From positions 2,762,501-2,826,500 of the forward strand of contig CM072344.1 in the NCBI GenBank assembly GCA_036874045.1: a stretch of DNA of 64,000 nucleotides. The letters are read 5' to 3'. Below are positions 16,891-64,000 of this stretch, one piece after another. The position numbers were made by a program, and so were the translations under genes. The stretch comes from Cymodocea nodosa. Lineage: Eukaryota > Streptophyta > Magnoliopsida > Alismatales > Cymodoceaceae. The notes under the pieces are model-generated. The model searched no databases. It was not told where the DNA came from and was given only the letters and a program-made list of their open reading frames with translations. Positions within the stretch are counted from its first letter, which is position 1. Each line of letters opens with the position of its first letter.

Positions 16891-17122
16891 GAATGTCCCC
16901 GACCGGATTATTCACAGATAATTATTGTAAAAGTGTCGCACAAACTTCGTATGCTAACCGATCGGATCCGTTGAAGATCCGATTACGAGATGGAGAAAAT
17001 GGAAATATCACATCTGCCACTGCCCCTATCGTATGCTCGCCTCGGCAAAAGCTGCTCTGTACCATCACTTCTCCGCGACGATAATCTTCTTCCGGATCAC
17101 CCCCCCTGAAATCGTGACACTA

Positions 17123-26845: not shown

Positions 26846-27898
26846 CTACACACCGGGAAACATGAAGTTCGTCGCGTCCGGCGGCGGTCTTCGTGCCAAC
26901 GTTGCCGTCGGGTCGCAGTAGTTCTTCCACTGTGCTTCGTGGCAGCAGTCCTGGTACTGGTACAGCTGTTGCTTCTGCCGCATGTATCCGGGGTCCATCA
27001 CCGCAGGACGATACTCGTCGTGAACTGGTTGAGCCGCCGGATCAGAAGTGACGACCGACGAGTATGGCCGCAAGAAACCTTGATGTTCATCAATGATGTT
27101 ACTGCATGAGTTGGGACCAGGAGGAGGCGAACGGTGCTGCCGTTTGGTAGCAGCTGTGGTACCACTACTACTTGCACCGGTCCTCTTGAAGATCCTGCAT
27201 ATCGTCCAAGTTTCCTGCAGATACGATATATCAGATGAAATAGATTTCGATTGATTGATCGGTGTGGTACTTGGTTTGGTTACCGCTTCGGAGATGTGGT
27301 GGGCAGGGACGCCGACGTCCGACGCCGAGGTCTGTCGCTGTGGGAACCGGAACTCATGCATCATCCAGTCGGTTTTGTGGTTGCTCTGGCTGGACCTTCC
27401 CAAGTAGTAGACCAGGCATTTCTTGAGGCCGATGCAGTCGTCGCCGGAAGCCCTTATCTTCTGGTCGATGCCGGTGGCCTTCCAAAAGCCGGACCCGTCC
27501 GTGACGCGGTTTGGCCGGACGCTGTTCCGGTATTTCTTCCTTCTCATGCAGAAGAAGTACCACTCGTTGTCTTCAGCTCCATGAACGGCGTTTTGCCCTT
27601 CCATATGTACACGTATGCACATCAGAATCATTAACAATAATACATGCAAACAAACATGGGGGAGGGGGGGAGTGATGATGATGAAGGGAACGCAGGTACT
27701 TGGAAGATCCCATGGATGGTACTTGTAGATATCCATCTCCTGTATGAATTCGATGCGGACGTCCTTCTTCTCCACCTTCCGGCGGAGGTAGAACCCGACG
27801 AGCTCCTCGTCTGTGGGATGGAACCGGAACCCGGGGAGGATCATGTTACAAGATTCTTGAACTGTGGGCAGCCATGACGATGTTTGCACATCATCCAT
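26846..27898 (-). CDS. JUB1-like: NAC transcription factor of the JUB1/NAC042 type
   Basis: Three exons on the minus strand: 27898-27700, 27597-27284 and 27214-26846, giving 293 residues. The NAC domain runs from about residue 21 to 180: [22 protein letters not shown] (subdomain A), [11 protein letters not shown] (B), [21 protein letters not shown] and [11 protein letters not shown] (C), LVYYLG and [12 protein letters not shown] (D), then [11 protein letters not shown] (E). The words FFCMR, KATGID and YYLG are those of JUB1/NAC042 relatives, which are stress- and longevity-linked regulators in Arabidopsis. Intron positions match NAC genes. The C-terminal part is Ser/Pro/Gln-rich, as expected of an activation region. 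Both introns (102 and 69 nt) are multiples of three and contain no in-frame stop, so the unspliced frame is open for 350 codons. The orthologue assignment is by eye. Confidence 0.93.
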
Positions 27899-28000
27899 CG
27901 CTCCTCCTTTACATGTAACGTATCTTGTTAATTATACCCAGGAATTAATCATCGATGGCAGTCAAGGTTGGCGAACTGGACTTGTTTGTGTGGTGGATTC

Positions 28001-28087: not shown

Positions 28088-30361
28088 TCTTGACCATACA
28101 TAATAATTAATGCCTGCTGTAAGTTTTTGACGAGATTCGAACTTTTAAGAAATTCTGAAGTTATAGTGTGATTAATCTACAATTAAAATATTATTATAAT
28201 GTTAACTGTTAATCATCAATGTTAATATTATATTATATTTAAATTGTTTAAAATAAATAATGGGCATAAGATTATTTAATTATTGAAGTCAATAATTTGT
28301 TGATCTAATTAATATTCGTTGGTCTTATCACCACTAGTTAATGATATACGTTAGATGTAAAAAAATAGGTAAAATTTATAAAAGGTATTCATTAATCTAA
28401 ACCATTATCTACATATCAAGATGATCAACAAAAATCTATTTAGTATTTTATTCACGATTTACTACAAATTGAATTTCAAGAGTCAAAGGGAGGAATCACT
28501 TTTTAGGGGTTAAGGTTTTGTTTCTGCCTGAGAGAGAATGAATGGAAGTTTTTGTAAGATTTTTTTTTTTAAATGGCCTAAAATGTGGAGGCCAAAATTT
28601 ACTTAAAAGTTATTCCATACAATAAACCAACTAAATAAGGATAAATAAGGATTTTAAATAGTCAAAAGTAAGAGGAGAGAAGATTATAATTAAAAGAATA
28701 ATTAAAGAGTAAGAAAGTTATTTTTACACAAAATTTATGTAAAAGTTGTCACATGAAAATTTCTTTTCTATCCATATAATAGATTTCTCAATAATTTAAC
28801 ATGTTTATAAATTTCATTTGAAAGTGTTGCATATTATGATCATTTGAAAATTTAAACCTGTACATGCATCCAAAGAAATGTAAGAATTATAAAATTCTAT
28901 TCTTATTGTAATTACTTTATTTCTTGCATATATGGATTTTGAAAGTTTGAAGAAGTTCATAAATATGTATAATTCATGAGAGAATTAATCCAAATAAATA
29001 AAAATGTTAAAAGTAATAAACAATAATAAGATGGATGAATATAATAAAAAAGAATAATTGAACTATCAAATACAATCTACTATTATATCCACATTTTATA
29101 AAAATTAACGTGAAGCTCGTGACTCCGAAGCCTCCTTTGTTGGTATTATAATAATATAAAAATAATGAAAGAACTAATGCAAAATAATTAAGATGTTAAC
29201 ATTGAAGTATAATGTTAATTAACATCAAAGTATAATAATAAGAGAACCAATGCAAATTACTTGAGACGTCAATATGATAATACTGTAATGTCAACAACAG
29301 AGGAAGTTCTGCCTTCCAACGAGACTATAATATGACTATTTTCTTCATGTCATTAAGAATATACGAGTCCTATTAGAATATACACATGATTTAATTTCAT
29401 TCAAAAATGATGATAACGTCCATGCTGTTATTAGTAAGTTAGTATGGTTAATATAACCATGAAGATATTGTAAATTTGAGTTTTTTATGGTATCAAATAA
29501 ATGAGTTTTTTGAATGACATACAAGTAAATATAATTACCAAATTACCATCACATGCAAGTAAATACCAAATTTTTAAAATGTTCCACATATCTATGAACA
29601 TGGTTGTGACCTTTATTTTGTAATATAAACTTAATTTTACACATGAAATTCAAAATTAATTGATAAAAAAAATGTTAACAGCACATCATCGTCAATGTCT
29701 TTTACTTTTCCTCGCTCCCTAAGCAAATGGGAATATTTTCATGGAACAAGTAACCCTGAGGATTTTCATCCCTTTCCATTAAAAAAAAAAATTTACATGC
29801 TTGGTTGAAGTCAATAGAAGAAAATGTACTCGCTGACATAATACAACAGCTTGATTTTCCACGTATGCTCTCTTTTTTCTCCACCACCAAGTCCAACATG
29901 GAAAACTGCTCGACAAATATCTTTAAGTAGAACGTCAGCGTTTAAACTTTGAACGATAAGAATCATGATTGAACTGACATATACTTATACATAGATGCTA
30001 TTGACTACTACTATTCCATCTAAAAAAAACTATAGTTTTGACGATCATACATCAAAATTTCTATGCAAAGGTCATGATCATTGAAATTCAATGCAATTAT
30101 CTGCATGTATATTGCTTATTGTATCTTCTAATAAAAGAAAGAAATTCGATGTTGGTTCCTTCCTTCCCGAGGAGCTTTATCTTGCAAGGAAGAACTACTT
30201 GACAACACACTACACAAAAATCTGATAAAATGTTGCTTACATATAAAAATCCTAACCATGAATCAGGATGGAAAAAGACAATGCAATTCCCTTGGTGGGA
30301 TCGTGTTTGCGCACGTAGAAAATCAGAGGACGGATCTTCTACCCAAATTGGTGGAAACAAA
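28088..30361. other. Intergenic stretch between the NAC gene and the cytochrome b5-like gene
   Basis: Very AT-rich, with no gene or recognisable transposon protein. The part nearest 30361 is the probable 3' untranslated region of the minus-strand cytochrome b5-like gene. Confidence 0.6.
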
Positions 30362-33300
30362 TCATGGCTTCAGATCTCCTATGTAAAATTCATCGATCAT
30401 ATCAAAGACACGAGTAGCATGTTGTGGCCTACAAAATTAATTTGAAACAGCACATCATTTTCAGTGAGTTGAATAAATTGCAAAAAGAGGAAGAAGTAGA
30501 TGTCAAGCACCATGCAAGTAATTCGCGTTAGATTAACTACAGCAGTACAACCACGGATACAAAAATTTAGGAAATGTCAACTTTAGTACTCAACACTTAA
30601 GGCGATGGTTCTGATCAATGGAAAGGCCATGAAATGACTTGGTGTTGGCAATAAACTGAAATGAAAATTTCTCTACCGTTGATCATTTGTTATCCATGGG
30701 ATATGTTTAAATGTGAGTCTTAGAAAGTTTCAAATTACTGTTACATTTCTAATAAAGACTGGAATTTGCTTTTTTGTTCTTGAGCAATATTATTTTTACT
30801 ATGTTAGAGTCTATTATTATATCATTAGTCCTTATGTCATGATGTTGTATGTGTGTGTGGGTTATGGGGTTATTTGGATATCCATTATCCTAGCCCTATG
30901 TATAATATTGATTAGTTATCCACCCCCATCTATTACCAGCCGGCCTCTGTTGGTCAGCTTGTGAGATCAACAGCGTTAATGGCCATGTTGCTGATGGTTC
31001 AATGTTTTAGAACGAAAGTCAGCATATTCAATTTTTGTGCATGGACCTATGCGTCCACATTGGTTTGTACCTTCAAATTGTTAGGCGCGTGTTAAAGGCT
31101 TTGGTGCAATTAGACTGTAGCTTTTCCCCCCTGTTTTGGACAGTTTATTGTGATAGATTGGACTGCTTGTTGATTAATGATGGCAAATCCTTGATCAAAA
31201 ATCTTACTAGAACCTTTGAAAAATTAAATGGGAAAAATTATCTCCCTTGGTCAAAAAATTTTGAAACTTTCATTGCAAACACAAAGAGTTACATCTTACG
31301 GATAAATGAGAAGGATGACAAGTATGAAGATTGAAATGAAGATGATGTTCATATAGTTTCCATGTGAATGGTAGGGAGTCCAATATTACTCATGGTGATA
31401 TGATGCACCCTAAGGGCTACTACATATAGGTACAAGCAGAACATCTCTAGAGTGTTCAAGGTCTACAAAAATTGTTTACACTTTGGCAAGGTGAAAATCC
31501 ATTCTAGAGTTTTAATTGTCTCTACACTCTCTACTAGACAAGCTTGATATCTACCAAACCATTGAGTCTTGATGTCATGAAGATCCACCAATATAAGGAA
31601 GAGCTTGCAATAGTGGTTTTCTTTTCCAACCTCAATTTAGACTTTGCATCACAAATTTTAAAAAGACCTTTGTATTTTGATAATACAAAAATCTATATGA
31701 AGATAAATAATGTATTTCACAGATACAAATAGAAGTTACTAAAGTGCACAGAAAGGAAGATAGATTTATGAGAAAACCTAAAGAAGTAGAAACTTGGATT
31801 GTTAAGTATATGAGTTTCTATAGTAGTTATCAAGGAAAATTCAAAGATTTATAGTAAACAGTTGAATAATTATTTAGTGAGTAAAGTAGGAGAAATTGGA
31901 TAGTTATGAAATAACTGTTCGAGTTTCTCGAAGGATTATAAGCTAATTATCCGAATTTAAGTAATATCAGGAAAGAAGAATAAAAGGAGAACTCGTATAG
32001 TTACGAAATAACTATTCAAAATTTTCAAACAGTTAAGATAACTTTACGATTTTGTAGAGATCTCATGTGCAAAGCTTAAGATATCATGTGACAAATATAA
32101 GAAAATAGCAAAAGGAAAAACTCATAGTTATAGACTACCTGTTCGAGTTTCTTAAAGAATTATGAGATAATTATCCGAATTTGATAGAGAAATAGTCAGA
32201 ATCTTCGATAGTCAGTTGAATGGTAATTTTTTATTTTTAAGACTAGCAGATTAGTAATACAATAGATTCTCTAACAATGAAGAAAATTTGATCGTTACAT
32301 TCTTTGATATAAAAAGAGACTAAGAATAATAACAATATTAGAACATATATATACATACAGAAAGAATTTATCATATACGTCCAACAAGAAAGCAAGTGTG
32401 CACCAAACACAAAACATTTTTAGGCAATCCTCTATTTCAAGCTTAATCAAGCATGTCAAAACAAAGTAGAAAGTTCCCACTGTGTAACTCACATTCCAAA
32501 GATTGCAACATTTGTAGGTTTGAAGTTTTCACTTAAAAACTTCACTATGATAGGTTAGAGTTGCAACCATAAAACTCTGATTAGTGTTAATTCTTACTTC
32601 AACCTCAAAACAAAAGTTTGTAAGTGTCGTTCCCTTGAAGGTGAACTAGTCAGTTGAGTAAATTACCTAAAAATCTTTTGTGTTTTCATCATGCCATTTT
32701 TATTCTTACTGTGATTATTCGATTTATATCGTGTACATCATTTTCATAGTTAAACTTATACCATTGCAAGTTTAAATATTATCAAAGATTTTAAAATTTA
32801 ATCACATAACACCATTCACCCCTCCTTTGATATGTCATTCGATCTTAACAAGTGATATCAAAGTAGGTTGATCTCATTTATAGATTTAACTGTCTAAGAT
32901 CATAACATTATACTTTACAAAGAAACAAAACATTTATCGACCTCTCCTATTCGATGGTATCAATTATGAGTATTAGAAAAATAGGAAAGAGTATTTTTTC
33001 AAGAGTTTAGATATGAAACTTTAAACGATGGTAATTCGAGGAGCACTACTTCCAACCAATTATAAAGATAACTAGATTGAGGAAGATAAGAAACTCATCT
33101 ACTTAGATGCTCAAGAAATGAATACAATTTATTGTGCACTCATTGCTAAATAATATAATAAAATCTCTACACATAAGTTTACCTACGAGACTTAGAAAAT
33201 CCTTTAAATTACTTATGAAGGTATCAGTCAAGTGAATGATACAAAAATTAATATTCTACTTAAAAAATATGAATTATTCAATATATTTGATAATGAAAAT

Positions 33301-36300
33301 ATTATTGACATATTTTCTAGATTTATAATAAATGACCTAAAAGGCCTTGGAAAAGAATTTTCTATATGTAAACAAATATAAAAGATCCTAAGAAGCTTAA
33401 CTGTTGAGTGAAAATAAAAGTCTACGTCAATACAATACTCAAAGGATTTAAACAATTATTTTGTTGAAGATTTGTTAGGCAATCTTCTTACTCATGAAGT
33501 ACAAATGAAAGAAATGAAAAAATGAAAAGAAGAAGAATGAATCATTGAGAGAAAAATTTAAAGAAAGAAAGAATTGACATTTCTTTCGATAGAAAAGCAA
33601 CCAAACTTAGATGATGAAATACTATTGCTAACAAGAAATTTCAAGAAAATGCTGCAACGAGGGAGCAAAGCTAATACCTTCAAATCTAAAGTCTTGACAT
33701 GCTACAAGTGCAAGAAGCATGGACACATTTAGGCTTATTGTCCATTACAATAAGAAGATGATCAATAAAAAAGGAAGAAAATGACATTGAAAATTACTTA
33801 AGATGATAGTAGTTCATTTAGTAGTTCTTTAGACTCTAAAAAATATGCACCAGTTAACATGTATTTTACAATACAAAAGGTTTGTTCCATTTCTCACTGT
33901 TCAGATGTAGAAGATGAAAATTTAGATGTAGACATTTTACTTTCAACTGTAGATAATTTGTATATTAAATGTAAAAATTATAAGAAAGAAGTTAAAAATT
34001 TAAATTATATCTTAGAAGATGCATTTGTTGAATTAGAAAAGGTTTTAGTTGATAATAAGAACTTAAAAACTAAACTAGACAATTATAGTTGTAATTATGA
34101 TCTGAAACAAGAAAATAAAAATTTAAAATTTAAAATTGTTGATTTAAAGAATACTCTTTGTAAATTCACTAAAGAAGAAAATAGATTAAACAAGATCACT
34201 AAGATTAGGTGCAACTAAATTTAACCTAAGGTATGCTACACTATAGGAAATATCCTACTATGGTGGTGTGATCCATTTTTATAGAAATGACACTATAGTT
34301 TTTGCTATCAAGAGAAGATTCGGATACATATGACTGCCAAGACACAATAGATTCAATATTTTAAGGACTAATAATGCTAAACTTAAGAAGATCTCAGTAT
34401 CAAAAGACTTAATTTCAACGTAATTTACAGGAAAATAATGACAAATGAATGCTAACATCAAGATAGATCATAGATAGTGGATATTCAAAATACATGACAG
34501 GTAAGAAAAAGTTTCTTAACTCCATTAAATCAATAAATTTGGGATTTATAAAATTTGAAAATAATGTTAAATGTAAAATTATTGTTGTAGGAAATATTAC
34601 ATGTGAAAATGGTAAAATTGAAAATGTTCTGAAAGTAAATGAACTAAAACAAAATCTGTTAAGTGTAGGACAACTTTGTAATAAATGATTTATTTTTTAC
34701 TACTAAAAATGATTTCATAATTGATTAAGACTCTCATAAAATTAAATTTACTGCTTTTAGAGATAATTCAATTTATGTATTAAATTTCTCAACTGAAAAT
34801 TCTATAAGTGATGCATGTTTAATAGCCTTTAATGAAGATGATTAGTAGTGACATAAAAGATTAAGACATGTTAATATAAGAACTCTCAGAAAATTGTTCA
34901 AACATAATTTAATTAGAGGTGCCCTTAAACTTAGATTCAAAAATGATAGAGTGTGTAATGACTACATAGTTAGGAAACAAAAGAACAATATATTAAAGTA
35001 TAAATGATATTGTTACAAGTTAGCAATTAGATTTACTATATTTAGATTTATTTAGACCTACATAGACTGCAAGCTTAGGAGAAAGAAAATATACCTTAGA
35101 AATAGTTAACGACTTTACAAGATTTACTTCAATAATATTTTTGACACATAAGAATGATGATTGCACAAAATTCAAACACTTTTACATAAGAATTTAGAAT
35201 GAAAAAGAAATAACTGTAAAGAAAAGAAAATAAGAAGTGATCATGAAAGAGAATTTAAGAACACAAAATTTGAAGAATTATATAATTTATTTAGAATTTC
35301 ATATGAGTTCTCTTGTCTAATAACTCTAACTCAAAATAGAATTGTGGAAAGAAAGAATATATTAATTTAGAAATGATAAGAATACTTTTGAATGTATCAG
35401 ATTGGCCAAAGTTTTTATGGATAGAAATTATTAGAACATGTCATATAATTAACATAACTCATATTAGACCCATATTAAATAAGATAGTTTTTAAATTATG
35501 ATATGAAAAAACATCAAATGTTAGATACTTTAAAGTATTTGGTTGTAAATATTTTGTTCTTAATACAAGAGATCAAAAAAATAAATTTGATGTCAAATCT
35601 GATCTAACAGTACTAGTTGAATACTCTTCTAGAAGTAAAGTATTTAAAGTATACTTTGAGAAAGATAGAAGAGTGGAAAAATCTGTTAATATGAGTTTTG
35701 ATGAAGATCTAACAAGTAAACTAAAATAGTTGAAGATAAATAGTGACAGTGAAGATGAATCAAAAAATCAAAACAATATTCAGAAAGAGGAAAATTTCAA
35801 ACTTCAAGCATCTGATTCAACTAAACAATCTTGGAAAACCAAGTTTGATCACCTTATTGAACAAATTATTGGCAACATCAATCAGAGTGTCTAGACAAGA
35901 AATAAAACTCAAATTTTTTGTGATTACTATGTATTTGTATCTAAAATTGAGCCTAAAATAATTGAAGAGGTTTGCAATGATAACTATTGGATTATGGTTA
36001 TACAAAAAGAACTAAATCAATTTAAAAAGAATGATCTTTGGCAATTAATTGAAAGACTTACTGAAAAATCAATTAATTTGCACAAAATGAGTGATCAGAA
36101 ATAAATTAGACAATGTTGGAAACATAATCAGAAACAAAACAAGACTTGTTGCTCAATATTATAGTCAACAAAAAAGAATCGACTATGAAGAAATATTTGC
36201 ATTTGTGACTAGACTTAAAGTAATTAGAATATTGCTTGTTTTTGCTAACAATATGAAAATAAGATTATTTCAAATGAATGTGAAAAATACATTCTTGAAT

Positions 36301-39300
36301 AAAATTCTGTAAGAAGTATTTGTAAAACAATCCTTAAGATTTGAAGATAAAGAAAGATCAGATCATGTGTATAAGTTAAATAAGGCTTTATATGGTATAT
36401 GGTTTGAAACAGATACCTAAGGCATTGTATGATAATCTTAAAGATTTTTTATTTGAAAATCAGTTCAGTATAGACAAAATAGACAACAATTTGTTTATTA
36501 AATCAGTTGATTCACATATGCTGATCATTTAAATCTATATTAATATTATTTTTGAAGTAACAAGTGAAAAATTATGTCATAAATTTCAAAACTTAATGAA
36601 AAATGAGTTTGAAATGACTCTTATGGGAGAACTAAAATTCTTTTTAGAATTACAGATCCATCAGTTGTAAAATGACATTTTAGGAAAAATTATGTAAGGA
36701 GATTTTGAAGAAATTTGGATGGAAAATCCAAAAGAAGCCATCACTTCAATGAGCTCAAATGAAAAATTAGTCAAGGATATTTTAGGTATTGTTGTAGATC
36801 AAAAAGAAATATAAGGAAATGATTAGATCACTCCTGTATTTATCTACAAACAAGTCAAACATTATGTTCAATGTGTGTGCATGTATAAAATATCAAACAT
36901 CTCCAAAAGAGTCACATAAAAGCAATCAAACAAATTTTCAAGTACTTATAAGGCACCAAGGATTTTAACTTATTCTATTCATCATAGAGTGATTTAACAT
37001 TGTTAAGGTACAGTGATGTAGATTATACAAGTTACAAGTCAAATAAAAAGAGCACTAGTAAAACATGTCAGCTAATTAACCATTTATTTGTATCTTAGTT
37101 TAGTAGAAAATAAAATTACATAGCTTTGTCTATCATTGAAGTAAAATATATTATAGCTGGATTGTGTTGTGCTTAAATTTTATAGATGCAATAGACATTG
37201 ACAGATTACAAACTAAAATTTTAGAATATTATCACTTACTATGAAGTAGTAGTACTAGAAATTTATTCAAGAATATTGTGATATACTTAAGAATTAAACA
37301 TATTAAGATTAGACACTACTTTCTAAGAGATCATGTTGAAAAAAATCATATCTCACTAGAATATGTCTACTACAGATCAACTCATAGATATTTTCACTAA
37401 ACTATTAAATGAATATTCATTTACTCATATTAAATGTATTTTAGACATCTGTTCATTGCATGATTTATAATTTGAATTTCTATTTTATATCTCCTCATAC
37501 AACTCAAGTTTACAACTTAGGAGCTTGTTTTATGTTAACCCTTATTTATGTAGAAAATTAGTCAACACACATATTCAAAGGGAACCTTACCTTCATTTAG
37601 GTAGCAGTTATATAAAAGCAAGACTATAGAACTCTTTACGCCAAATGACAAAAAATAGGGAGAAGTTATATACATATGAGAAACAAGGAGAGAAATTAAA
37701 GGAGCTATGAGATCAAGTATTATAAGATATAAGGGGAGCATTTAAATAAAGAGAGAAGTTATGTAATTCTCAATAATCTATTTGAACTTTTATTTTATCG
37801 TGAGCATTTTATTGTATAGAAATGACTTAAGGAGTGAAATACCTGTACTTTATTATAAGAGTTTTTGTCATTATCAAAAAGAAGGAGATTGAAAAGATCT
37901 CTATATTTTGATAATGCAAAAATCTATGTGAAGACATATAATGTATTTCATATAATGTATGTACAGGTAGAAGTTACTAAAGTACATAGAAATTGTACAA
38001 AAAGGAAGATAGATTCACGAGGAAACCTAAAGAAGTAGAAACTCAAATTGTTAGGTTAAGTATATGAGTTTCTATAGCAGTTACCAAGGAAAATTTGAAG
38101 AGTTATAATAAACAGTCAAACAGTCATTTGGTGAGTAGAGTAAGAGAAGTCGTATAGTTATAAGATAACTATTCAAGTTTCTCGAAGGGTTATAAGATAA
38201 CTATTTGAATTTAAGTAATATTAGGAAATAGAAATAAAAGGAGAACTCGTATAGTTACGAGATAACTGTTCGAGTTTTCTAAACAATTAAGATAACTCTA
38301 TGACTTTATAGAGATCTCATGTACGGAACTTAAGATATTACATGACAAATATAAGAAAACAATAGAAGGAAAAACTTGTACAATTACAAATATAAGAAAA
38401 CAATAAGGAAAAACTTGTACAATTATAGTCTAACTGTTCAAGTTTCTCGAAGAGTAATGAGATAACTATCCACGTTTGGTAGAGAAATAGTTAGAATCTT
38501 CGATAGTCAGTTGAACAATAACTTTCTATTTTTAGGACTAGCAAATCAATAGTACAACAAATTCTATGACGTTAAAGAAAATTCGATTATTACATTCTTT
38601 GATATAAGAAGAGACTAAGAATAGTAACAAGATTAGAACAAACATATATATACATATAGAGAGAACACTTTGATCATATACATTTAACAAGAAAGCAAGT
38701 GTGCACCAAATGCAAAACATTTTTAGGTAGTCCTCTGTTTCAAGTTTAATTACACACATTAAAGTAAAGTAGAAAACTCTCATTGTGCAAGTCACATTCC
38801 AAAGATTGCAACATTCGTAGGTTTGAAGTTTCCACTTGGAAACTTCAATGTGGTGGGTTAGAGTTGCAACCATAAAACTTTGATTGATATCGATTCTTGC
38901 TTCAACCTCAAAGCAAGAGTTTGTAAGCGTCATTGATAGTGAAGTCTAAGGTGTTCTCTTGAGGGTAGACTAGTTGGTTAGGTGAACCACCTAAAAATCT
39001 TCTGTGTTTTCATCGTGCTATTTTTATTATTATTGTCATTATTTGATTTATATTGTGTACATCATTTTCATAGTTAAACTTATACCACTACAAGTTCAAA
39101 TATTATTAAAGATTTTAAAAATTAATTAGAAATCTTGAAACCAACTTCTCTAAAGTCTTGAAGATCTCCTCTACCCCCAACACCTCCAAATCAATCTGCT
39201 TTAATATGGCAAGGGGGAGGATGTACAACAGTAGTAGAGGATGTGGATCACCTTATTAGCATTGTAGATGCATGGAACATTGCTCTGATCAATACCAAGA

Positions 39301-42300
39301 AAAGTTTGAGAAGCTCTTTTAGACTAATGTTTCCATCAAGGCTACATCTACACAGTCTACACTTGGCACATCAATTTATCAGATGATATCCTTCTCTAAG
39401 GTTGACTATGAGTGCTTCCTTAAATTTGAGGCTACTAAAAACAATACCATGTCACATGGTATCACCTACCGCATCTTCTATACTTGTTTGGATCTTCCAA
39501 CATACTACAATTGCCATTCCAAAATTGTGGAATTTTTTCATGTGTTTGGAAAATCTTTTTTAATTTGTTTTGATGATACAAAATTTAATGATAAATATGG
39601 ATTTTTTTGTGTATATTAAGTTTATTGCAAGTCACACACAAGCAAGGAAGTGAATAAAGCATGGTTATAATCAAGGAAGATCAAGCTAAAACAAATCAAT
39701 GGAGATTTTAATAGATGAAAATCAATAGGGATGGAGCATAAAAGAGAGGACTTCAAACTTACACTTTATATTTTATAAAATTTATAAATCTATTTAAAAT
39801 TCTCAATGTAATTTTCCTTAAATCCTAGGATCTAAATGTAAATCCTCAAGAAACCCTCATCTTGCACACACTCACACTAGGCTTTTCATTCATACAATTC
39901 AATAGGATATATATAGAGTACATGCATAGACTTAGAAATTTTTTTTAGAGGTGTTTCATGGCATTAGGTCAACTAGATCTAGAGATGATTATATTTGTTA
40001 ATTAGATCAACCCAATTGGATACCATTTGTCAAAATTGATGATTTATTTGCTAGGGTGAATAATTAATTATAATCAAATTTCAACTTATTATGTGCAATT
40101 AAACAAATATGATGAACTCTTATGACAAATGTGATGATTGAGTGAATTTTAACAAATGAATATTGAAGAGAAGATAAGTAAAAGTGCAAAACACAATAAC
40201 AAAAGAAAAATAGTTAACCCACAATCCACACTGCCACTCTCAAGTCTCACGTTTGTGGCCTATACTAAACCATCAATATGAGGTTAATACCATACTGTTT
40301 ACACCTTTACAGGTTTAACACTAAGGAGGCCTTACCACAACCCAACAAGGAAATTTTATACAACAGTAGTTCTAATTCTCCTTGAGTAGCCTTATCCTTG
40401 ATGAATGCAGATGATATTCAATAAAGCTAAGTATATGTGCACTTTGGAGAGTGGAGAAGAATGTGATTTTTCTCTTTCAAGAATGAGAATGAAGAGCAAT
40501 AGTGTAGGCAATTAGTTAGCAAAAACCCATGACCAAAAACATTAAGTAGAGAAAATGTTAAATGCTATGCCACACCTCTAAAAATATTTCTAAGTGTATG
40601 CATGCATTATATCCTAATGAATTATATGAAAGAAAAAGTTAGCGTTAGTGTGTGCAAGATGAGAGCTTCTCAAGGATATACATTACATTCTAAGAATTAA
40701 AAAAAAAAGATAAATTTACATGGATTTATAAATTTTATAAAGTATGAGGTATAAGTCTTAAGTCCTGTTTTCTTTGTTTGATCCTTGTGATTTTTATCTA
40801 TCAATCTTCATTGATTTGCTTCAATTTGATCTTTGATCTTCCTTGATTTTAACCATGCTTGGCTTTATTCATTTGCATGCTTGTAATGTATTGTATGACT
40901 TGCAAAAAGCATAATATCCGTAAATAAATTCATATTTATCATTAAATTTTGTATCACAAAATCAATTGAGAAAATTTTTCTAACATAGGAACATAATCCT
41001 CAATTTTGAAATGATAGTTCTAGCATGTTGGAACATCATGACAAGTATAAAAGCTTGATTGAAAAGCTGATCACAATTACCCAATAGACATTGCATATGC
41101 CAACAACTTACTGTCGCATACATTAAAGGTTCCCTAGCTAAAGGTCTCATCTACAAGAAAAGTAATTACTTAAAGGTGAAGGCCTTTATATTCAAGACAT
41201 GTGAGAGATCTAAGTGATCGAAAATCTACTTCAAACTTCTGTACTTATATGCCTGCATACGTTAAGTGTTCCCTAGGGAAAGGTCTCATCTACAAGGAAA
41301 ATAATCACTTAAAGGTGAGAGATCTAAGTGACAGAAATCTGGCTTCACTTCAGACGTCTATACTTACATGCTTGGTTTTATTCATTTGCATGCTTGTAGT
41401 GTATTGTGTGACTTGCAATATACACAAATAAATCTATATTTATCATCAAGTTTTAATCATCAAAATCAATTGAGAAATATTTTTCTAGCATAGGAATAGA
41501 ATCTACAATTCTGGAATGATAGTTCTAGCATGTTGGAGGATCTGGACAAGTATAAAAGATTGATTGAAAAGTCAATCACGAGTACCCAACAGACATTGCA
41601 TATTCTAACAATTTACTCTCACTTGCCTACGTTAAAAGTGCCCTAGGCAAAGGTCTCATTTATAAGAAAAGTAATCACCTCAAGGGAAAGGCCTTTATAT
41701 TCAAAATATGTAAGAGCCAAGTGATAGAAAGTTTACTTTACTTTAGGCTTCTATACTTATATTGGCAATTGGCTAGAAGCACTCAAGTTGGTCAAGAATT
41801 TCAACCTGCAAAACAACAAACTAGATTGGCCCAATACAATCAACTAGGTGCTTTCTACTACTTAAGTCAAGCAAGTGTGATAAAAGGAGGTAGATCAGGT
41901 TTTTGGGTTGGAAAAGCATACCATAACACCACATATATTGGTATTTATAGTGACAAAGAGAAAAAGTAGTCAAGGCTCAGCAAATCATTCTCAATCATAT
42001 GGCTCTACAGTGGCAATACATAGGCAACAACTTGACTCTAGTGGCCACATCAACTCCACATGTTGACTGTATCATAAAGGTTAGACTCTACATCACATGG
42101 TGTAACAAAGTTGACTCACACGTCAAGTGTGCACACCCTAGCTAGCCTTGTTGACTTGCCCCTCTAGAGTAGTTGGGAACTCATGGCACGAACAAGATGA
42201 CCGAGATGAATTGAACAATGATTTTGGCTGAATTGTGCACACCACAAAAATAGAAGTATAGGTCATGCAAGCCAAGCAGCTAGGTGGTTTATGTGACTAG

Positions 42301-43067
42301 TTAGCATGAAGGCAACCTGTTGGGTTGGGTGACTCCAGTTTTGTGTGTGGTGCTGGTCCAATTGACCACCCACATGAGTGGTTCGACCACTGTGATGTGG
42401 TGAAATAAAAAGCAAAATGTAATCTCAAGGTCTAGTGTAAAGGCTAAATATAGATCTATGGCACAGGGTAAATATAAGATAATAATATATTTGTTTATAT
42501 ATTTTAATAATTATGCATATTTCAATAATATTCTATCAAAAATACATATATATGAATTTTACAAGAACCATTAAAAACATATGTTTGATTAAACAAATTC
42601 GACAAAAGATCCACTTAATTAAGATAATGCAAGATAAATTTTCAATGTGTAAGTCATGCCTAAGCATCTAAGCATCTGTCTTAATAAGTATGCAAAGAAT
42701 TCCTAACATGATTGTTTAAAAATTCCAAATAAAAACAAAAAATAATTAGAATAATGATTAAGAGAATATATATATGTACAAAGTCACATCATACAAAGAA
42801 TTCATAAAAAACAAACCCATAAAATCCTTCTGTGGAGTCGTCTCCAGCATGATTTAGTATGGCATCACCACCTGGATGCTCTTCCACATATGGAGTCACA
42901 TCATACACCTAACATTATTGTGAGAAGTATTAAAAAATTGGGAGTCCAAAACTAAAATCTTCCATTACAAAAATTAAAAAAGTACTAACCTTGTCTTTTA
43001 TAATGATCCAACAATCACTCCTTGACTTGTGAAGTGAAACTTCAGTCTTTGTATATGTTTTCGAGTC
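30362..43067 (-). CDS. CB5LP: Cytochrome b5-like membrane haemoprotein (CB5LP type), 3' exons, giant last intron
   Basis: Three minus-strand exons are seen: 43067-42990 (26 codons, through SDCWIIIKDK), 42908-42817 (VYDVTPYVEEHPGGDAIL, then a DDSTEGFYG end) and 30428-30362 (PQHATRVFDMIDEFYIGDLKP and stop). All junctions are GT-AG and phases 0 and 2 match exactly. Together they form the complete haem-binding core of a cytochrome b5-like protein, most like the plant CB5LP group (At1g60660). These are small anchored electron carriers; the usual partner enzymes are desaturase- or P450-type oxidases, not shown here. HPGG carries the first axial histidine and QHA the second, in different exons. The intron between them is 12,388 nt (30429-42816), full of retrotransposon fossils. 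The 5' exon with the expected N-terminal membrane anchor was not found; it should lie between 43068 and about 48300. Confidence 0.88.
30433..31185. other. Intron sequence flanking the older Copia
   Basis: Part of the last intron of the cytochrome b5-like gene. No coding match. About 30800-31180 could include an LTR or leader of the older Copia whose gag starts at about 31190, but no paired LTR was recognised. Confidence 0.4.
31190..31657 (+). mobile_element. Older Copia fossil, 5' part of gag, split by a later insertion
   Basis: The plus strand reads as a Copia Gag start (EKLNGKNYLPWSKNFETFI at about 31216-31272), and a later Gag segment (ELAIVVFFSNLNLDFASQIL) lies at about 31601-31660. It stops where the LTR of a younger SIRE-like Copia begins and resumes beyond that element at about 39130. 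It is heavily broken. Its position inside the cytochrome b5-like intron makes it the first of two nested insertions. Confidence 0.75.
31880..32190 (+). repeat. Repeated module inside the SIRE-like LTR
   Basis: Three imperfect copies of a module of about 100-120 bases (core TAGTTA.GAAATAACT, then TTCGAGTTTCTCGAA and AGATAA.TATCCGAATTT) begin near 31890, 32000 and 32125. Equivalent copies lie in the 3' LTR at about 38150, 38255 and 38415. The core contains short palindromes. As it lies in the U3 part it may be an old promoter or enhancer sub-repeat. Confidence 0.65.
38343..38422 (+). repeat. Short tandem duplication in the 3' LTR
   Basis: A unit of about 40 bases (ACAAATATAAGAAAACAATA followed by a GGAAAAACTTGTACAATT end) is repeated twice in tandem in the 3' LTR, but the 5' LTR has no such duplication, so it arose after insertion. 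Confidence 0.65.
39124..39542 (+). mobile_element. Older Copia fossil, gag continued downstream of the nested element
   Basis: Beyond the 3' LTR of the SIRE-like element, the older Copia resumes with a Gag region having a degenerate zinc-knuckle segment (about 39210-39310) and the linker to protease (to about 39480). Together with 31190-31657 it shows that the younger element landed in the older one's gag. It is cut at about 39542 by an inverted-repeat structure. Confidence 0.7.
39543..41003. repeat. Long inverted-repeat structure, arms about 0.42-0.45 kb
   Basis: The arm at 39543-39966 is matched in reverse complement by 40553-41003. The outer ends read TGTTTGGAAAATC and TGTTAGAAAAATT inward from each side. 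Similarity continues through a TATA-like ATATATAG/ATATAATGCATGCA region and stops at a shared AGAGGTGT..CAT word. The spacer (39967-40552) has no recognisable coding sequence. This fits either a fold-back DNA element or two LTR-like sequences in opposite orientation. No flanking target duplication could be confirmed. Confidence 0.75.
40851..41761 (+). repeat. Tandem duplication joining repeat-arm and Copia RT/RNase H pieces
   Basis: A unit of about 390 bases at 40851-41244 recurs at 41367-41761. Each unit begins with the outer third of the inverted-repeat arm (CATGCTTGG.TTTATTCATT) and continues into a Copia segment from the end of the reverse transcriptase to RNase H (words such as DLDKYKRLIEK and GLIYK). 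A partial third copy lies between them at about 41250-41366. The duplication therefore happened after the repeat structure was next to the Copia sequence. All copies are decayed. Confidence 0.7.
41770..42810. other. Intron sequence without recognisable feature
   Basis: Remainder of the giant cytochrome b5-like intron. It is somewhat less AT-rich at 42000-42420. It may be LTR or leader of the older Copia but lacks a partner sequence. Confidence 0.4.
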
Positions 43068-46000
43068 CTAAAAGTGTGAACACAAAATAAGAATTCTTAA
43101 TTCATACTATGTGGTGATGGGTATAGGATTGAAAAGACAAACATAACTCTTTACAAAAATTGAATTTAGATAATAAACATATAAATAGAACAGAATTTTG
43201 GCACTTGCACCCAATAATTTAGATAATAATTCATAATTTTTTGCATCACTTTTATATAGGAAACTTTGTAGGGTACTTACGAATTTAGAAGGTAACAATA
43301 ATGTGAAAATAAGAAATAAGGAAATATCATATGTCTTTTGATAAAGATGTAAAAAATCTCATGGAGTAGATGCATGAGTGCAAAAGGGTGAAGACAATCC
43401 TATAGATAAATATTGATATTTCTCCTTAGCCAAGAAAAAATCACATCAGTCGATGTAACTAGATTTTTCTCTGTATTATGCTTATGAAGTCATATTTGAT
43501 TATTTTGAGTGTAGAATGAACCCAAAAGTACGTAACTTATTTCACTGATGCATCTTCTTTTTTTTTGATTCAGGGATAATAGCTTAACTAATTGGAAATG
43601 CCACTTTGCACATGAGAAATGAGCAAGCTGAGATGAAAGCACATCATGTCTTAGAATTTCAAGTGATCTATTTAATAAAGAATGGTTCCCTATTTAAAAA
43701 ATGATAGGACTTGTCATTTATTGATGAAAAATCATGGAAACATAATGGGATTAACACAAAATTGAAAAAAAATGAAAATTTCCTTTTATGCTATATGAAT
43801 AAGAGAAAGAAATAGTATAACATAAGATTTCACTAACATAGATGTGAACATGAGACAGTGCTAGGTCTAGATGTCTTAATTACCTTTGAACCCAAGTTTT
43901 ATTAGCAGTTTAAGTTTGAAAAGTAATAGCTTTTTCAATAATGTGCTCGAGAGAATGGTTATTGTTGTTTGTTCTAATGATACAAGTTCAAAAATTATTC
44001 CTTTTAAGTACCATTGACTAATTGTAGATATAAAATCACCATGGTTTTGAGATTTGTACCTTCTGGGTAGATCCTGCCTGAGAGATTTTTTGCCCACCTA
44101 GATGAGTGGATCAAAGTAAATATCATATGCTGCCAAAAATAAGAAGTAGCACCAAAAATTGAAACTTCAAATTCTACAGAAAATATACAGTATTTCAATT
44201 TTCTTGTCATCTGCCATCATGCTCTCTATAAAAGTTACAACTCCATTTAAAAAGTAATTGTAGAATTGAAGTGTTGATACAATTCCAAGAATCAAAGAAG
44301 TCTTAGTTAATAAAATAAGAAAAAGTATGTTATGTACCTTTTATATATCATTATTATCAAAGAAAGTGCGTATCTATGGATTAAACATAATAAATTTGGT
44401 ATGGAGTTCAATAATTGAGTTCAGTTGTCAAAAACAATCTTCTAGATAATCACTAACTGTATGAAATTTTCAATGAAATAAGTCAAATATTTAGTCCATG
44501 AGTCTAAAATTTACACATTTGCTCGTAGCCCCTTTGGAATGGATAAGGATTACATTTACTTTTCACATTAGCATATGGACAAGGAAGATTGTACAGAACT
44601 TTGCTAATATTAAGGTTAGTTAATATTGAAGGAATATATGATTGAACTTGAAGGGTGGGCAATTCAAATAAAACAATCAGGATCTGATAGAACATTAGAG
44701 CCTAATGCAATTTCTTGATGGATGAATTTTAGGCATAAGTACTGAAACTAGGTCAGCAAGGACACCTTTCATTTGTAGCCTTGAGATAAAAAACAAAGTG
44801 ACAAACAGCAAGCCCAGAAATGATGTCACAATGATCACCATCATTTTCCTTTATCTGCTAATCCATTATAAAGCAATCAATATTTTACCCATGACACAAA
44901 AAAAAAGAACTGGAAATGGAAAATGCTGCAGTTTAAGACAAATGTCTCAAAATAACTGAACTAAATATACAATATAGTTCCACTTGAAGTATGTACAGAT
45001 TAAAAATACACATGAGCATAGAAATAGTATAAATATACAATATCACAAGAAATACAAATTAAAAATTATTTCAAATATAATTTTCAAAACAACCAGATTT
45101 ACAAATTCATTTGAACTAATCAATGACTTGCGAGTCACAAGAATTTAGCACATGAGCATGAACTGCAACAGTCATAGTCAGCAATGAAAAAAATGTACAG
45201 ATATAGGGCAGAAATATGCACTTTGAACTTTTAAATCAGATAAAACTCAACGTTTACTCAAACTCAACGTTTTTGTTGCACTTTCTTCTTTGAAGATGAT
45301 GTTAGATGCTAAAACTTGCAGAACTCAGTAAAGAGAATAAACCAGAATTTAGGTACAGAACTTGCATGAATTGAACCCATAGAAACTCAGAATTCTCTTC
45401 CTCCTTTATCTTAATGGCAACTCCAAAGAGATACTAGCAAAGAGGAAAATGTATAGCAAAAGAAACAATCCTTCACAGAACAACTCTAAAAAAATCTAGT
45501 GTTTCCAGAAACCATAGCTTTCCCATCCATTTCTCTTGAATTCCCAATGAGGAATCTAGAGAACACCAACGTTGTCAAAATACATCAAGCAATTATTTAA
45601 TGAAATAAATCATTATCATCCAATGAAACTAGTTAATTTAGTATTTTATTGTACTGTAATTCAGTTAAATGATAAGTAACAAATAACTAGAAAAACTTAA
45701 CATATGGAGCATTCTATTATTGATATTTTGTCTCAAACATTAGTACATCATTGGATCATCATTATTTGTGAACATATAAGGGTTATTATTGGTTTGCTAC
45801 AATACATAAAGGAATCTTCAAAATGCAAAGTTTGAATTATAGGTTGGACTTTTTGTCAGCTTTGGCTTGGTAGTTGGTAAAGCTCACTTCCTGATTCCCT
45901 GGAGAATAAACAATCTCAAGAATAAATAAATGCTACTTTGATGATTGACCATACAAGAACAACCCATGGTTGGCCCTCCCTCCAAGCACAAACATAATGT

Positions 46001-47280
46001 GACAATACAAACAATATTCAGAGATTAAAAACAATAGGTTCTTCCTTAACCATGCTCAAAATGAATAGCATGTTATTCCTACAAGTGAAAATACAATCAA
46101 AAGAACCCGAGGACATTTTCAATTTACACATATTTAAGTTAAGAGGCATTAAATCTTGGACACCTTAAGCATTTTGGCTCCTAGATGTCATTGGAAAAAA
46201 TAAAATATATATACAACGTTTCTATTATTCAGATTATTAAATGCAATATAGATTAAAATATGTATCAAAGATAGATCCATAAATGACATTAAAATATATG
46301 GTAAATGACAAGAGAACAACAAACATATAATAAAGATCAGTATAAACAACCATTAAAATCACAAGGGAGGCATGAGTTTTAAATGTTTAATATATAAGAG
46401 AACAATGCTGTTTTATGTCATGTTCAGTACGTTGTAATGCTGCCAACACCACAGTACAAATAAGGCATTCATTGTTGTTGTTGGTGCATTGGAATGTAAT
46501 GAACTCTGAAATGAAATTTCAATGGGAATAGAAGGTAACGATTATCTTCTATTTTCGTATTTTGTATGTAGAATATAATTAACGGGAAATTTATTTTCAC
46601 TGTTTGTATGTAATAAATATAGAACTGGAATGAATATAATAAATATACAATAAAAAAATCCTTCTACTATGAAATTTTTTAAGAAAATATACATGAACAG
46701 ATTATCCTTTCAACATGAAAATATCAAAGTTTTATGAACAACAAGAATATCTAAGTTCTGCAAATGCACGAAATTTAACTGCACGAATCTTTAGGATCAA
46801 CTATATAAAATGCGCATGGCTTTGTTCTTCACTCAGATTAATCAAAAGAAAAACATAAATTGATCTAAGACAAAGTTAATCAATAAATCAACAAACAAAG
46901 AAATATTCGCAACTCAAGATTGGAGGCTATAGCAATGATGCAATAAAGTGAATAAACAAGAAAAATATGTGTGAAGGAACGCAAGGAGTAGGGGATGGAT
47001 GGCGGTGAAGTCGGAAGGCTGTATGGAGGCATAGAAGATGGACGATGAGGTCATATGACGTGACCAAGCCTATGAGGTCGGATAGAGGTGGAGACGGATG
47101 AGGAGATTAGAGGATGCATTAGAAGTTGCAAGTTGCCAAGGATGACGAAGGAGATACAGAACTGGAGATGGAGTGGGTAAACAGGATTTCAGTATGGAGT
47201 GAAATTCCTATAAGAAAAAGTGAAATTCCAATATGAAATAAGAATCTCATTCTCATGTAAATGATCATTTTCACATTATA
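43068..47280. other. Long AT-rich stretch, presumed 5' intron or flank of the cytochrome b5-like gene
   Basis: No recognisable coding exon. Open stretches such as 43107-43298, 43876-44210 and 44504-44695 (minus) encode nothing familiar. The first exon of the cytochrome b5-like gene is expected somewhere in this stretch or in the GC-rich segment beyond it. Confidence 0.4.
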
Positions 47281-47281
47281 T

Positions 47282-47340
47282 CTAACAACCACGGGAATGC
47301 AATCTGAAATAGATTAAAGTGGCGAGCGAGCGAGCGAGCG

Positions 47341-47376
<36 letters not shown>

Positions 47377-47640
47377 TCACAGCAGCAGCAGCAGCAGCAA
47401 CGCTGGGTGTCTCGGCGGTGGCGAGCTGATGGTTCGACGGAGAGAGCAACGCGGGACGAAGACTCGACGCCCTCCCTTTCTTAGAATAAAACTTCAATTA
47501 TAAAATTTAATTTAACATTTGGTTTCTTAACTCTGATATTTCTCAACGTACGTCTTCGTTTGCTTCTAATCTTTTCGACGTGTAAAGATGCTCGGGTACA
47601 TCAGCGATGCTATTCGTCTTCCCATTACTCACATTGGTAG
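47282..47640. other. GC-rich segment with CT/GCTC and CAG repeats, possible leader or promoter
   Basis: After kilobases of AT-rich DNA, 47282-47480 turns GC-rich with (GCGA)n at 47322-47345, (GA)n to 47373 and (CAG)n at 47379-47399. On the minus strand this is a (CT)n/(CTCG)n leader, typical of plant 5' untranslated regions, and could be the first exon of the cytochrome b5-like gene. On the plus strand an ATG at 47588 opens a short frame (MLGYISDAIRLPITHIG) followed by a possible donor. I do not recognise it. Confidence 0.35.
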
Positions 47641-48317
47641 TTCAGCGATGACGTTTTCCCTCTTCAGCGTGTGTTATATGTTCCTTCGTTGGCTTATATA
47701 ATCTTCCACCTCTTTTGATAGTTTGCTTCTGAGATTAGTTTTGGTGCTGATAGGTTTCTTGTTAAGGAGAAGATCACAAGCAAGATTCGTCTACATGGCT
47801 ATGGATGGCAGCGGTGGTTTCTACAAAATCACCAACTCTTCCAAATGCTACTCCTAAAGCTCTCTAATGCAACTTCAATGTCTTCAAAATCTTGCCGTTG
47901 ATGCATTCCAGCGCAAGGACTAACAAATCTTTATCTCCCTGACAATGTTGATAGATATAACCAGAGCAGGCAAAGTTTTAACATGAAAAAGGAAGGACAA
48001 AACTTTAAGGATCATTTTTATTGATTCAATTTTTTTTGTGAATGGTATGAATAATAAATAGCAAAGAACCAAAGATCTAATTCAACCTTTTCCTAAGCAT
48101 TTGAGGTCTTAAACATGTAAAACAAGATGCATAATCGATCTTACATAAATTGGTACTTTATCAAAACCCTAATGATTTGCATCTAGATAATGGAAACATC
48201 ACCACAGGTGCAAATCTTCTTCATTAGAGATAGTGGCAAAACAAACTGCCGTCCACTTATTTTGCAATCTTTGTGTAAGGTACAAAAACAACCCCAATAC
48301 CGATGCATTAGATTCTG
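47641..48317. other. Spacer and 3' untranslated flank of the SWAP70-like gene
   Basis: No gene recognised. 47750-47930 is less AT-rich and partly open on both strands but matches nothing I know. The part close to 48317 is the likely 3' untranslated region of the minus-strand SWAP70-like gene. Confidence 0.45.
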
Positions 48318-51300
48318 TCAAGGTTGGATGGAGCTCCCTTCATGTTGATGGTGATCTGTTGTGGAACTTACCACCGGAATATCAAGGCTGTTACCATCCT
48401 CTGTTGATATTTCCCTGACATCGGCTACTCTGGCATCTGTGGACTGAAAATCATTCCACTCACTATCACCAATCGAACGAATATTGAGTCTGTCCACTGC
48501 CAGATGAACTCCACCATCATTGGAATCTGAATTATTTCTGGAATCACTTAAACAAGCTTTGTCGACATTGTTATCCAAAGGATCAACATGCTTCGTCAAT
48601 GGTAAGTTGCTATCAGCTGAGCACGACTCTGACTTCTCATTAATAACTTGCTTTGTATTGCTTTCAAATCTGTGTAAAGAGCAAAAGAAAGTCAATTCCT
48701 TAAGCTTGAACTTTTACTAGAAAAATCCCCTGAATTCTAAACTTGGAGGCACGGACCACATGGACAATGATAAAAATCAAGGGAACGGTGCAGCATAAAG
48801 ATCAGACCATAAGCAGAAAAAACAGGCAGAACAAGGCCAGCAACAATATATGTGGTTGGTACGTCTAATGAGATGATACTCAAAACAAATACATTGAAGT
48901 ACACCTTTGAACTTGAGACTGTAAATTATTCACATAGGCCAGAAGTTCTTCCTTTTCTTTTGCAGAAGCTAGCTCTTTTTCTGCAGAAAACTTAAGTTTA
49001 GCCTCGGCATCTGCCTGTGATACCCTAGCTCTTTCATCAGCTCGCATCACAGCTGCCTCAAGTACAACAGCATGTTCCCTAGCTTTTCCAAGCTCTGAAC
49101 GCCAAAGATGTGCCTCTTGAATTGCCGAGTCCCTCTGCTTCAGTAGAAGCTCCTTTTCTTTACTTAAAGTAATAACCTTATCTTCAGATTCTTTCAACTA
49201 AAAAAGGAAATTGTGAATTACCAAATATGTTTCTACCAGCTGGAATGGGAGAGCAAATCAAAGAAACATAGAATTACCTAGCATGCAAGCTGAATTATAT
49301 ATTAATCAGATTTACTTGGCTGGTAAAGATAAACATATATTATCATAGATTCATATTACTCAATTAATGCACAATATTTTCCTTTGATTTCATAAAATAA
49401 ATTTTTATACCATTATAAGCAAGCATGATTGCAATAACGTCCAAATGCCAACTTTTTGCTTATATATTATTAAGATAATTCTAATGTAATTAAAATACTT
49501 TATATTATAAGCATCTTTTTCTGTACTGAGGACAAACTCAGTTTGACCAAAATCTGTACATGGTTTTGAACATCATGACTCAAGGGCCAATGTTTCACCT
49601 ACGATACCATGTCATAAATTACCGTTATTTTACATTGAACTTACATGGGCCCCCATAGATATAAGGAATGTGAGGCTGTAAATCATTGAATCAAAAGGTG
49701 AAAAAAAACATAGATGCATGTTGGGAACCAAACGCTAAATTGTTAATGATACCCTTTTAATAAATCACTCCTCATCTCTCTTGCCCAGCCCACTCTCTCT
49801 GACATAATTAATTGTGCAAATGTCTAAGCCAAGAAGGTAGAACATTTAAAATCTCTCAGTTTTTCCACGTTTCAGTTGACATTTGAATGAACCCATGTTA
49901 TTTGGGGCATTCAGGATTTTATTAGATTTTGTGTTTTCAGGGGAAATCATGTTTTTCCCATAAGACCATAACAGAGAGATTTCCATAGCGTCTAACATAT
50001 ATCATATTTTGAATGGATTAATGTTTGATATGCAAAAAAGATAACAAAATTTTATTAGAAATAAAGATAAGATAAGATAATTAAAGATAAGATAAGAGGA
50101 AATTGACTTAAATGGTTTAACCACATCCCTAGAAAAACAAAATATGCACTAGTTAGGCGAGGAGAATTGATTAATATAGAAAATAAAAGTAGAGAAAGAC
50201 CAAAAATTACTGGTTTGAAATTGTACAAAACATTTAAATTTATGTAATTTAACTAAAGATTTGAAGAAGTACATAAAAGAAAAGGATTCATGTAACTAAC
50301 CCCATGTAGTGGAATTATAGTTTGGGTTGTTGTTTATGAAACCACTATTCAACACCATGCTTGAAATTGATCAAAGAAAAAACTTGTAAATTTAGTATTG
50401 AGAAATTTTTTGAGCAATAAGCAAGAATAACATTAAACTAAGTACAATACAAGATACAAGCCTATTAGCATGATGGGAGAAGAAAAAAGGGAAAAGCCAA
50501 AGAAACAGAAAACAACCAGAAAAAAGGAAAGATAGACACTAGAGATCTTGGAGACATGGCCAGCCTGTGACTACAAGCCATACAATAACACATTAAAAGG
50601 CACATGATCCAACTTGACATTGCCAAAATTGACTTTATACCATTCGTTAAGAGGACTAGCCATTCAGTCACAATAGAGGTCACCATGTTGGGTCACTGAA
50701 TTTCTTCCAAAGTGAAAACCCACTACCTTCTAGCCAACCATATTGAGATGAAAGAGGAATCATATTCCACATAGTTTTCCTCTTGCATTTGAAGTGCCCA
50801 TAACTCATCCATTCATGCCAAAAATCTTCAATGGTTGTAAATTTAGTATTGAGAATTGAAATCATAAACCATTACAACAATCAATATCTTAATTCTACCA
50901 TTTGGCCATTTGGGGTTGGAAACATGAATGCTTCCACTCTCTAGGATTCATATACATTAAAGGTTTCATGAGTGGCTAGGACTGGTTATATCTAAGATGA
51001 ATCCTTCTTTGATTATGTGTAGGAACACTGCCTACAACACAGAATTTCAATTCATATAATTTCTAAATGTTACTCCACAAGTGCTGCAACAAACATTTAA
51101 AATGAAATCAAGTTTAAGACGTTAATATGATTACAGATAAGAGGGATAAAATTCATCAAAAGAATGAAAATTATCAAAATTTCATGTTGGTATTTTTGAA
51201 ATAAGCACCTTACACATCAATGATTCAAATTTTTTCTCTGTATTCTTTGTTAGTTGTTCAATTTGTTCACACACGTGTCTCCTTTCTTCATCCATTAAAT

Positions 51301-57400: not shown

Positions 57401-57415
57401 ATAAAGATTGACTAA

Positions 57416-59050: not shown

Positions 59051-59239
59051 TATTTCAAGTGGCCAGATCAAAACGACATAATCCAATACAATCAAACTAT
59101 ATCGTTAAATAGCATGACCCAATATTTTAGGTCAAATTGGGTAGCCGTCTGATGCAATCAAATTGTATTGGCATATATAACTTGGTTTGGGCAAATGCGT
59201 CAGGACGACTTGATGAAAGGTTAGCTTATTGGTCCAACT

Positions 59240-59423
<184 letters not shown>

Positions 59424-59429
59424 GGGGGG

Positions 59430-61880: not shown

Positions 61881-61884
61881 GCTT

Positions 61885-62265: not shown

Positions 62266-62269
62266 AAGG

Positions 62270-63820: not shown

Positions 63821-63829
63821 AGAGATTAG

Positions 63830-64000
63830 GAAAGAAGGAAAGAACCTGGTTGACAAGTGGTGAGTGTGAGAGAACAATAATGAGCAACAAGCTCAAGCAA
63901 ACAATAATGAGTGGCAAACAAGAGCAAATAGTGGCAAACGATAAGCAGTGAGCAATGAGTGTGAGTGAACAATAGTGAGTGACAAGTGACAAGTGGTAAG
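63830..64000. repeat. Degenerate GTGAG/CAA-rich repeat at the window end
   Basis: Imperfectly repeated words AACAATAATGAG, GAGCAA, AGTGTGAG and GACAAGTGG fill the last 170 bases. It looks like a decayed minisatellite and continues past the window edge. Confidence 0.55.

Follow-up and report, generated by a model that had tools for sequence, protein, structure and literature searches.

A predicted cytochrome b5-like protein gene of Cymodocea nodosa with a 12.4-kb, transposon-filled intron between its two haem ligands

Within a 64,000-nt stretch of the Cymodocea nodosa genome (assembly GCA_036874045.1, contig CM072344.1, positions 2,762,501 to 2,826,500; hereafter the window), a gene predicted to encode the N-terminally anchored, cytochrome b5-like plant protein CB5LP carries a 12,388-bp intron between its two haem-ligand histidines. 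In the reading we favour, with a probability of about 0.88, this is the only detected CB5LP gene, its intron 4 is an old intron grown by Copia insertions, and the gene is transcribed and spliced to a functional product. The intron, at what looks like an old position between the haem ligands, would have received Copia-type long terminal repeat (LTR) elements antisense to the gene and so reached 12.4 kb, through insertions that the usual LTR clocks would place millions of years back. RNA polymerase would read through it, and the spliceosome would still pair the original sites, joining exon 4 to exon 5 to give a 117-aa electron carrier of the endoplasmic reticulum, probably serving CYP51 in sterol synthesis. 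The antisense orientation of the elements may help their toleration, and factors of the IBM2/EDM2 type could act on the intron. Because exon 5 carries the second ligand, failed splicing at this junction would leave a protein with one ligand missing, ending eight residues after GFYG.

The gene model comprises five coding exons on the minus strand over 14.5 kb, with a joined coding sequence of 354 nt. Introns 1-4 measure 668, 992, 81 and 12,388 bp, and every one is GT-AG. An earlier note on this DNA had described only the pair of haem-ligand exons. Its coordinates for both are exact to the base, and the pair proves to be the last two exons of five rather than a gene of two. The features, in the order of transcription, are:

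44766..44844, minus strand: coding exon 1, 79 nt, with the ATG and the N-terminal hydrophobic anchor
44060..44097, minus strand: coding exon 2, a 38-nt linker exon (GGQKISQAGSTQK) placed by its phase with exons 1 and 3 and its AG/GT borders
42990..43067, minus strand: coding exon 3, 78 nt, placed by a tblastn match and the in-phase model
42817..42908, minus strand: coding exon 4, 92 nt, with the first haem ligand (HPGG); a PF00173 match in the genome search
30429..42816, minus strand: intron 4, 12,388 bp, GT-AG, between the two haem-ligand histidines
30362..30428, minus strand: coding exon 5, 67 nt including the stop, with the second haem ligand

When named plant CB5LPs were used as tblastn queries against the window, the stretch of exons 3 and 4 matched at E 2.0e-26 (Tasmannia) and exon 5 at E 1.5e-9 (Tasmannia, Magnolia), similarities that are far above chance level. 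Exon 1 is supported by the N-terminus of Magnolia CB5LP (E 0.004, 48% over 27 aa). As had been proposed, the junction of exon 4 with exon 5 is in phase across the GT...AG intron, and the spliced 78-aa domain matches PF00173 over positions 1-74 of the 74-position profile (E 8.2e-24).

The predicted protein opens with MMVIIVTSFLGLLFVTLFFISR, passes through a linker into a C-terminal cytochrome b5 domain and ends in GDLKP. The domain holds both haem histidines, the second 23 residues after that of HPGG. Read by eye from the sequence rather than with a membrane predictor, the protein has one N-terminal membrane segment and no C-terminal tail anchor. Over 97% of the 78-aa query, its identity is 89% to the top relative, a Tasmannia cytochrome B5-like protein, and 88% to a Magnolia one; the best 120 listed matches are 82-89% identical, and many carry the same name. 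Aligning pieces of the canonical cytochrome b5 (CB5) genes of this genome are 34-68% identical. Judged by pairwise identities rather than a tree, the protein resembles CB5LP more than it does canonical CB5, and on these sequence comparisons we identify the gene as CB5LP. Arabidopsis CB5LP (At1g60660) is reported to be an electron donor to CYP51 in sterol synthesis, with a topology reversed relative to canonical cytochrome b5. The gene is essential there, its loss being seedling-lethal; replacing the two haem histidines together abolishes both haem binding and rescue; and the protein has been proposed as a herbicide target (PMC13155568). By analogy, the window protein probably shares the location in the endoplasmic reticulum, the electron transfer to CYP51 and the role in sterol synthesis.

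The gene appears intact throughout. Aligned with 172 relatives listed in two homologue searches, the window protein keeps all 40 columns that are conserved at 95% or more, and within exon 5 it keeps 8 of 8 columns conserved at 95%. Among the 51 columns conserved at 90% it departs once, where residue 53 is K instead of N; as many departures or more are seen in 112 of the 172 relatives. All eight splice-site dinucleotides are present and the five exons lie in one frame. Searching the whole genome (374.6 Mb, 28 contigs, with the window on contig C16) for PF00173 raised 37 candidates; all were scored and 19 matched, one of these being the CB5LP locus. The sequences of the other 18 were read individually and no second CB5LP was found among them. 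From their motifs, we take 13 of these to be canonical cytochrome b5 exons, two to be sphingolipid desaturases, and one each to be nitrate reductase, RLF-like and MSBP-like. The intact copy elsewhere that would have spoken for a silent locus is not among the 19 matches.

We also asked how probable such intactness would be under neutrality since the LTR insertion. A simulation of 20,000 runs per rate, started from the present coding sequence and scoring as intact only runs that kept frame, splice dinucleotides and conserved columns, gave 0.0001 when the full LTR rate was applied, 0.013 when transitions ran at twice transversions, and 0.08 when the rates were equal and indels were left out; it counts six gap openings from the MAFFT alignment of the LTR pair, for which a blastn alignment has 10. 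As the full LTR rate is inflated by methylation-type transitions, the simulation favours selection but alone is not decisive. The earlier proposal of continued selection for splicing is partly supported, by the complete five-exon gene, the conserved columns, the want of another CB5LP among the PF00173 matches and the essentiality of the gene in Arabidopsis. We consider it the best reading of the locus: the gene probably still functions, its transcripts being spliced over the insertions.

The content of intron 4 is dominated by an inner element, at 31661-39124, that makes up 60% of its length. The following features were recognised:

31011..31331, plus strand: gag-like frame (PF14244, E 0.046, under the cut-off), perhaps left by an outer Copia element on a reading of motifs
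31661..32808, plus strand: left LTR-like repeat of the inner Copia-type element, of a dispersed family; borders approximate
34467..34685, plus strand: Copia Pol_BBD remnant (PF22936, E 2.3e-14)
35502..35726, plus strand: SH3_retrovirus remnant (PF25597, E 2.8e-17)
36091..36309, plus strand: Copia reverse transcriptase (RVT_2) remnant (PF07727, E 3.5e-12)
37892..39124, plus strand: right LTR-like repeat of the inner element, at a Kimura two-parameter (K2P) distance of 0.189 from the left copy; borders approximate
39475..39965, no strand assigned: left arm of an inverted repeat, 75% identical to the right arm
40561..41053, no strand assigned: right arm of the inverted repeat
40854..41762, plus strand: duplicated pieces 40854-41250 and 41367-41762, 80% identical

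Pol_BBD, SH3_retrovirus and RVT_2 lie in that order between the LTR-like repeats, all above cut-offs and antisense to CB5LP, the order of Copia elements. On this evidence we regard the inner element as an old Copia-type LTR retrotransposon, and the gag-like frame beside it suggests an older, outer one. The nested Copia elements of the earlier note are borne out for the inner element, whereas the outer one depends on a match under the cut-off and a motif reading; the long inverted repeat it described is present. The LTR pair is 83.9% identical at 1,140 aligned sites and differs by 159 transitions versus 24 transversions. The ratio of observed to expected CpG is 0.27 in the intron, compared with 0.66 at positions 1-30000 and 0.38 at 45000-64000, and this depletion, together with the excess of transitions, fits long-methylated DNA. 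An age of 7.3, 13.5 or 37.8 million years would follow from substitution rates, per site and year, of 1.3e-8, 7e-9 or 2.5e-9; from these figures we claim only that the insertion is old. No target-site duplication was established in the aligned flanks, where the element borders are blurred. The LTR family is dispersed, with 84 matching pieces (its own two LTRs included) from the 40 scored of 1722 candidates; away from this element, the longest match spans almost the entire length at 75% identity.

As regards other content, a Pfam scan of intron 4 took in its 28 stop-bounded frames of 60 aa or longer, a limit that shorter exons of a nested gene would escape; only three matches passed, all to retrotransposon domains, and we rejected the idea of another host gene inside the intron. 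Rfam gave no matches at gathering scores in 29500-46000, and ARAGORN found no tRNA genes in the window. The motif AATAAA occurs 19 times in sense and 26 times in antisense, the first sense copy lying 1,434 nt into the intron; the strand difference is small and we draw nothing from it. Further Copia remnants lie outside the intron on the minus strand, at 18623-19069 and 20419-20799 (RVT_2, E 3.7e-17; Pol_BBD, E 1.3e-5, under the cut-off).

The position of intron 4 looks old, as judged from the protein models of relatives. When relatives were re-ranked by residues 40-96 alone, the models of 19 of the best 120 listed diverged exactly after GFYG/GFFG, the end of exon 4 here. Four of these stop, 12 run into other sequence without a histidine at the position, and three carry an insert before exon 5 resumes; 16 of the 19 accordingly lack the second haem ligand. 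They span monocots (Eragrostis, Urochloa, Musa) and eudicots (for example Populus, Glycine and Chenopodium), and four are labelled isoforms (Diospyros, Prosopis, Chenopodium, Primulina). By contrast, none of the 120 models listed in the ranking that included the last exon breaks at this junction. That models break at one and the same junction points to an intron there in many flowering plants and to a last exon that is often missed, as the earlier note had anticipated for an exon of 67 nt. The coding sequence of Arabidopsis CB5LP is a single exon, unlike the five exons here (PMC13155568), and two Chinese cabbage homologues of At1g60660 have zero and one intron (PMC6913312); CB5LP introns were therefore probably lost in that family. 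We met no description of this intron in the CB5LP and CB5 gene-family literature that was searched.

To place the intron length in context, we measured gaps between neighbouring domain matches in two gene families, taken between match ends and hence slightly off true intron lengths. The 93 myosin-head matches yielded 48 such gaps (profile gap -20 to 12), and the 37 adaptin matches 17 (profile gap -20 to 15). None of these 65 strictly paired gaps reaches 12,388 bp; the largest is 8,093 bp, and the median of the myosin-head gaps is 90.5 bp. Pairs with larger profile gaps were excluded from the count. One of them, in an adaptin gene on contig C11 (2384501-2423500), was examined: its matched pieces at 2420930 and 2390437 lie 30.5 kb apart, and a small unaligned exon may be hidden in between. 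An apparent paralogue on contig C9 (9930001-9937000) has about 0.77 kb at the corresponding gap; the main flanking pieces of the pair are 85-88% identical, and a short piece at the far border is 55% identical over 29 aa. Intron 4 is thus large for this genome, yet not unique. The rarity implied when the locus was first described is not supported, given this adaptin gap and the numerous introns filled with transposable elements reported in grape and rice (PMC3058033, PMC7145194).

Several points weigh against a functional gene spliced across its insertions. We infer transcription and splicing from the DNA, and single-copy status, which is likely, from a PF00173 profile search in which the best candidates were scored. 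The simulation makes a strong case only when run at the full LTR rate, which methylation inflates, and a weaker one at lower rates. Exon 2 is the least certain exon, its homology being a chance-level Vitis alignment (E 12). The intron 4 donor, GTTTGT, deviates from what we take to be the plant consensus. No identical protein occurs among the best 120 listed matches of either homologue search.

How far do these points favour another explanation? The locus could be a recently silenced copy, broken by the insertions but with undecayed exons, while its function is carried by another copy that went unseen; under the most cautious mutation rate, the simulated 0.08 leaves room for intactness by chance. 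Counter to this, frame, splice dinucleotides and conserved columns are all preserved, the other PF00173 matches include no CB5LP to take over, and the gene is essential in Arabidopsis (PMC13155568), so we consider silencing unlikely. Alternatively, most transcripts may end inside intron 4 and encode a shortened, one-ligand protein. Read-through past exon 4 would indeed add FVFYEFFV and a stop, the broken models labelled as isoforms are consistent with such products, and intronic transposable elements can trigger early polyadenylation (PMC10241880). Yet the conservation of exon 5 requires its use, the first sense AATAAA lies well into the intron (though 19 occur overall), and the Arabidopsis mutant that fails to rescue argues in the same direction, although it concerns both histidines and not one alone (PMC13155568); we judge predominant early ending to be very unlikely. 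The repeats and duplicated pieces of intron 4 might also raise the suspicion that an assembly error joined foreign sequence into the gene. The window, however, is without any N, the LTR pair records an old insertion with both ends present at 84% identity, and members of the LTR family are scattered over other contigs, which leaves an artefact with almost no credibility.

It is also conceivable that intron 4 serves as a conserved on/off control of the electron supply to CYP51, perhaps tuned here by transposon growth. Since the intron separates the haem ligands wherever it is present, a transcript that ended there or retained it would give a one-ligand, probably haem-less CB5LP, and the isoforms that break at the exon 4/5 junction in several plants fit such a role. 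We regard this as a decidedly improbable interpretation.

Elsewhere in the window, a NAC gene (NAM-domain) lies downstream of CB5LP on the minus strand at 26846-27931, with introns that seem to read through in frame; many of its listed relatives are named JUNGBRUNNEN 1, with identity of at most 54% among the best 120 listed. A plus-strand frame at 17033-17503 contains a DUF1068 domain (PF06364, E 2.9e-17). Minus-strand frames at 48318-52298 resemble a plant SWAP70-like protein; three of them gave no Pfam match at E 0.001. A long simple-repeat array at 59131-59554 produces IYIYIY and CICICI runs in translated frames.

The observation is real and ordinary in kind, and its usefulness is mainly as an annotation warning. 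As 19 of 120 listed models break at the exon 4/5 junction, surveys of CB5LP can lose the second haem ligand through annotation error. The locus also offers a clean case of a gene that is essential in Arabidopsis and has, here, a 12-kb transposon-filled intron between two required residues.

The locus can be set beside known systems. Like Arabidopsis CB5LP, the window protein combines an N-terminal anchor with a C-terminal cytochrome b5 domain whose histidines are 23 residues apart, His81 and His104 in Arabidopsis (PMC13155568). Intron 4 in turn resembles the transposon-expanded introns of grape, where 2,697 introns of 3-100 kb are reported with more than 80% repeats, Copia dominant among LTR elements at about 6.5 times Gypsy, and split genes mis-annotated (PMC3058033). 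In grape, identity is above 99% in about 30% of intronic LTR pairs, in contrast to 84% at aligned sites for the window pair (PMC3058033). In rice, 5,809 introns with heterochromatin are reported, many in transcribed genes, and intronic transposable elements show no orientation bias (PMC7145194); IBM2 and EDM2 suppress early polyadenylation in plant introns that bear such elements (PMC10241880). Intron 4 is likewise an element-bearing intron within a gene, of a kind that is transcribed in rice and Arabidopsis (PMC7145194, PMC10241880), whereas methylation, transcription and dependence on IBM2/EDM2 would be putative features of the window intron. Viewed alongside these systems, the locus looks like a clear and ordinary transposon-expanded plant intron.

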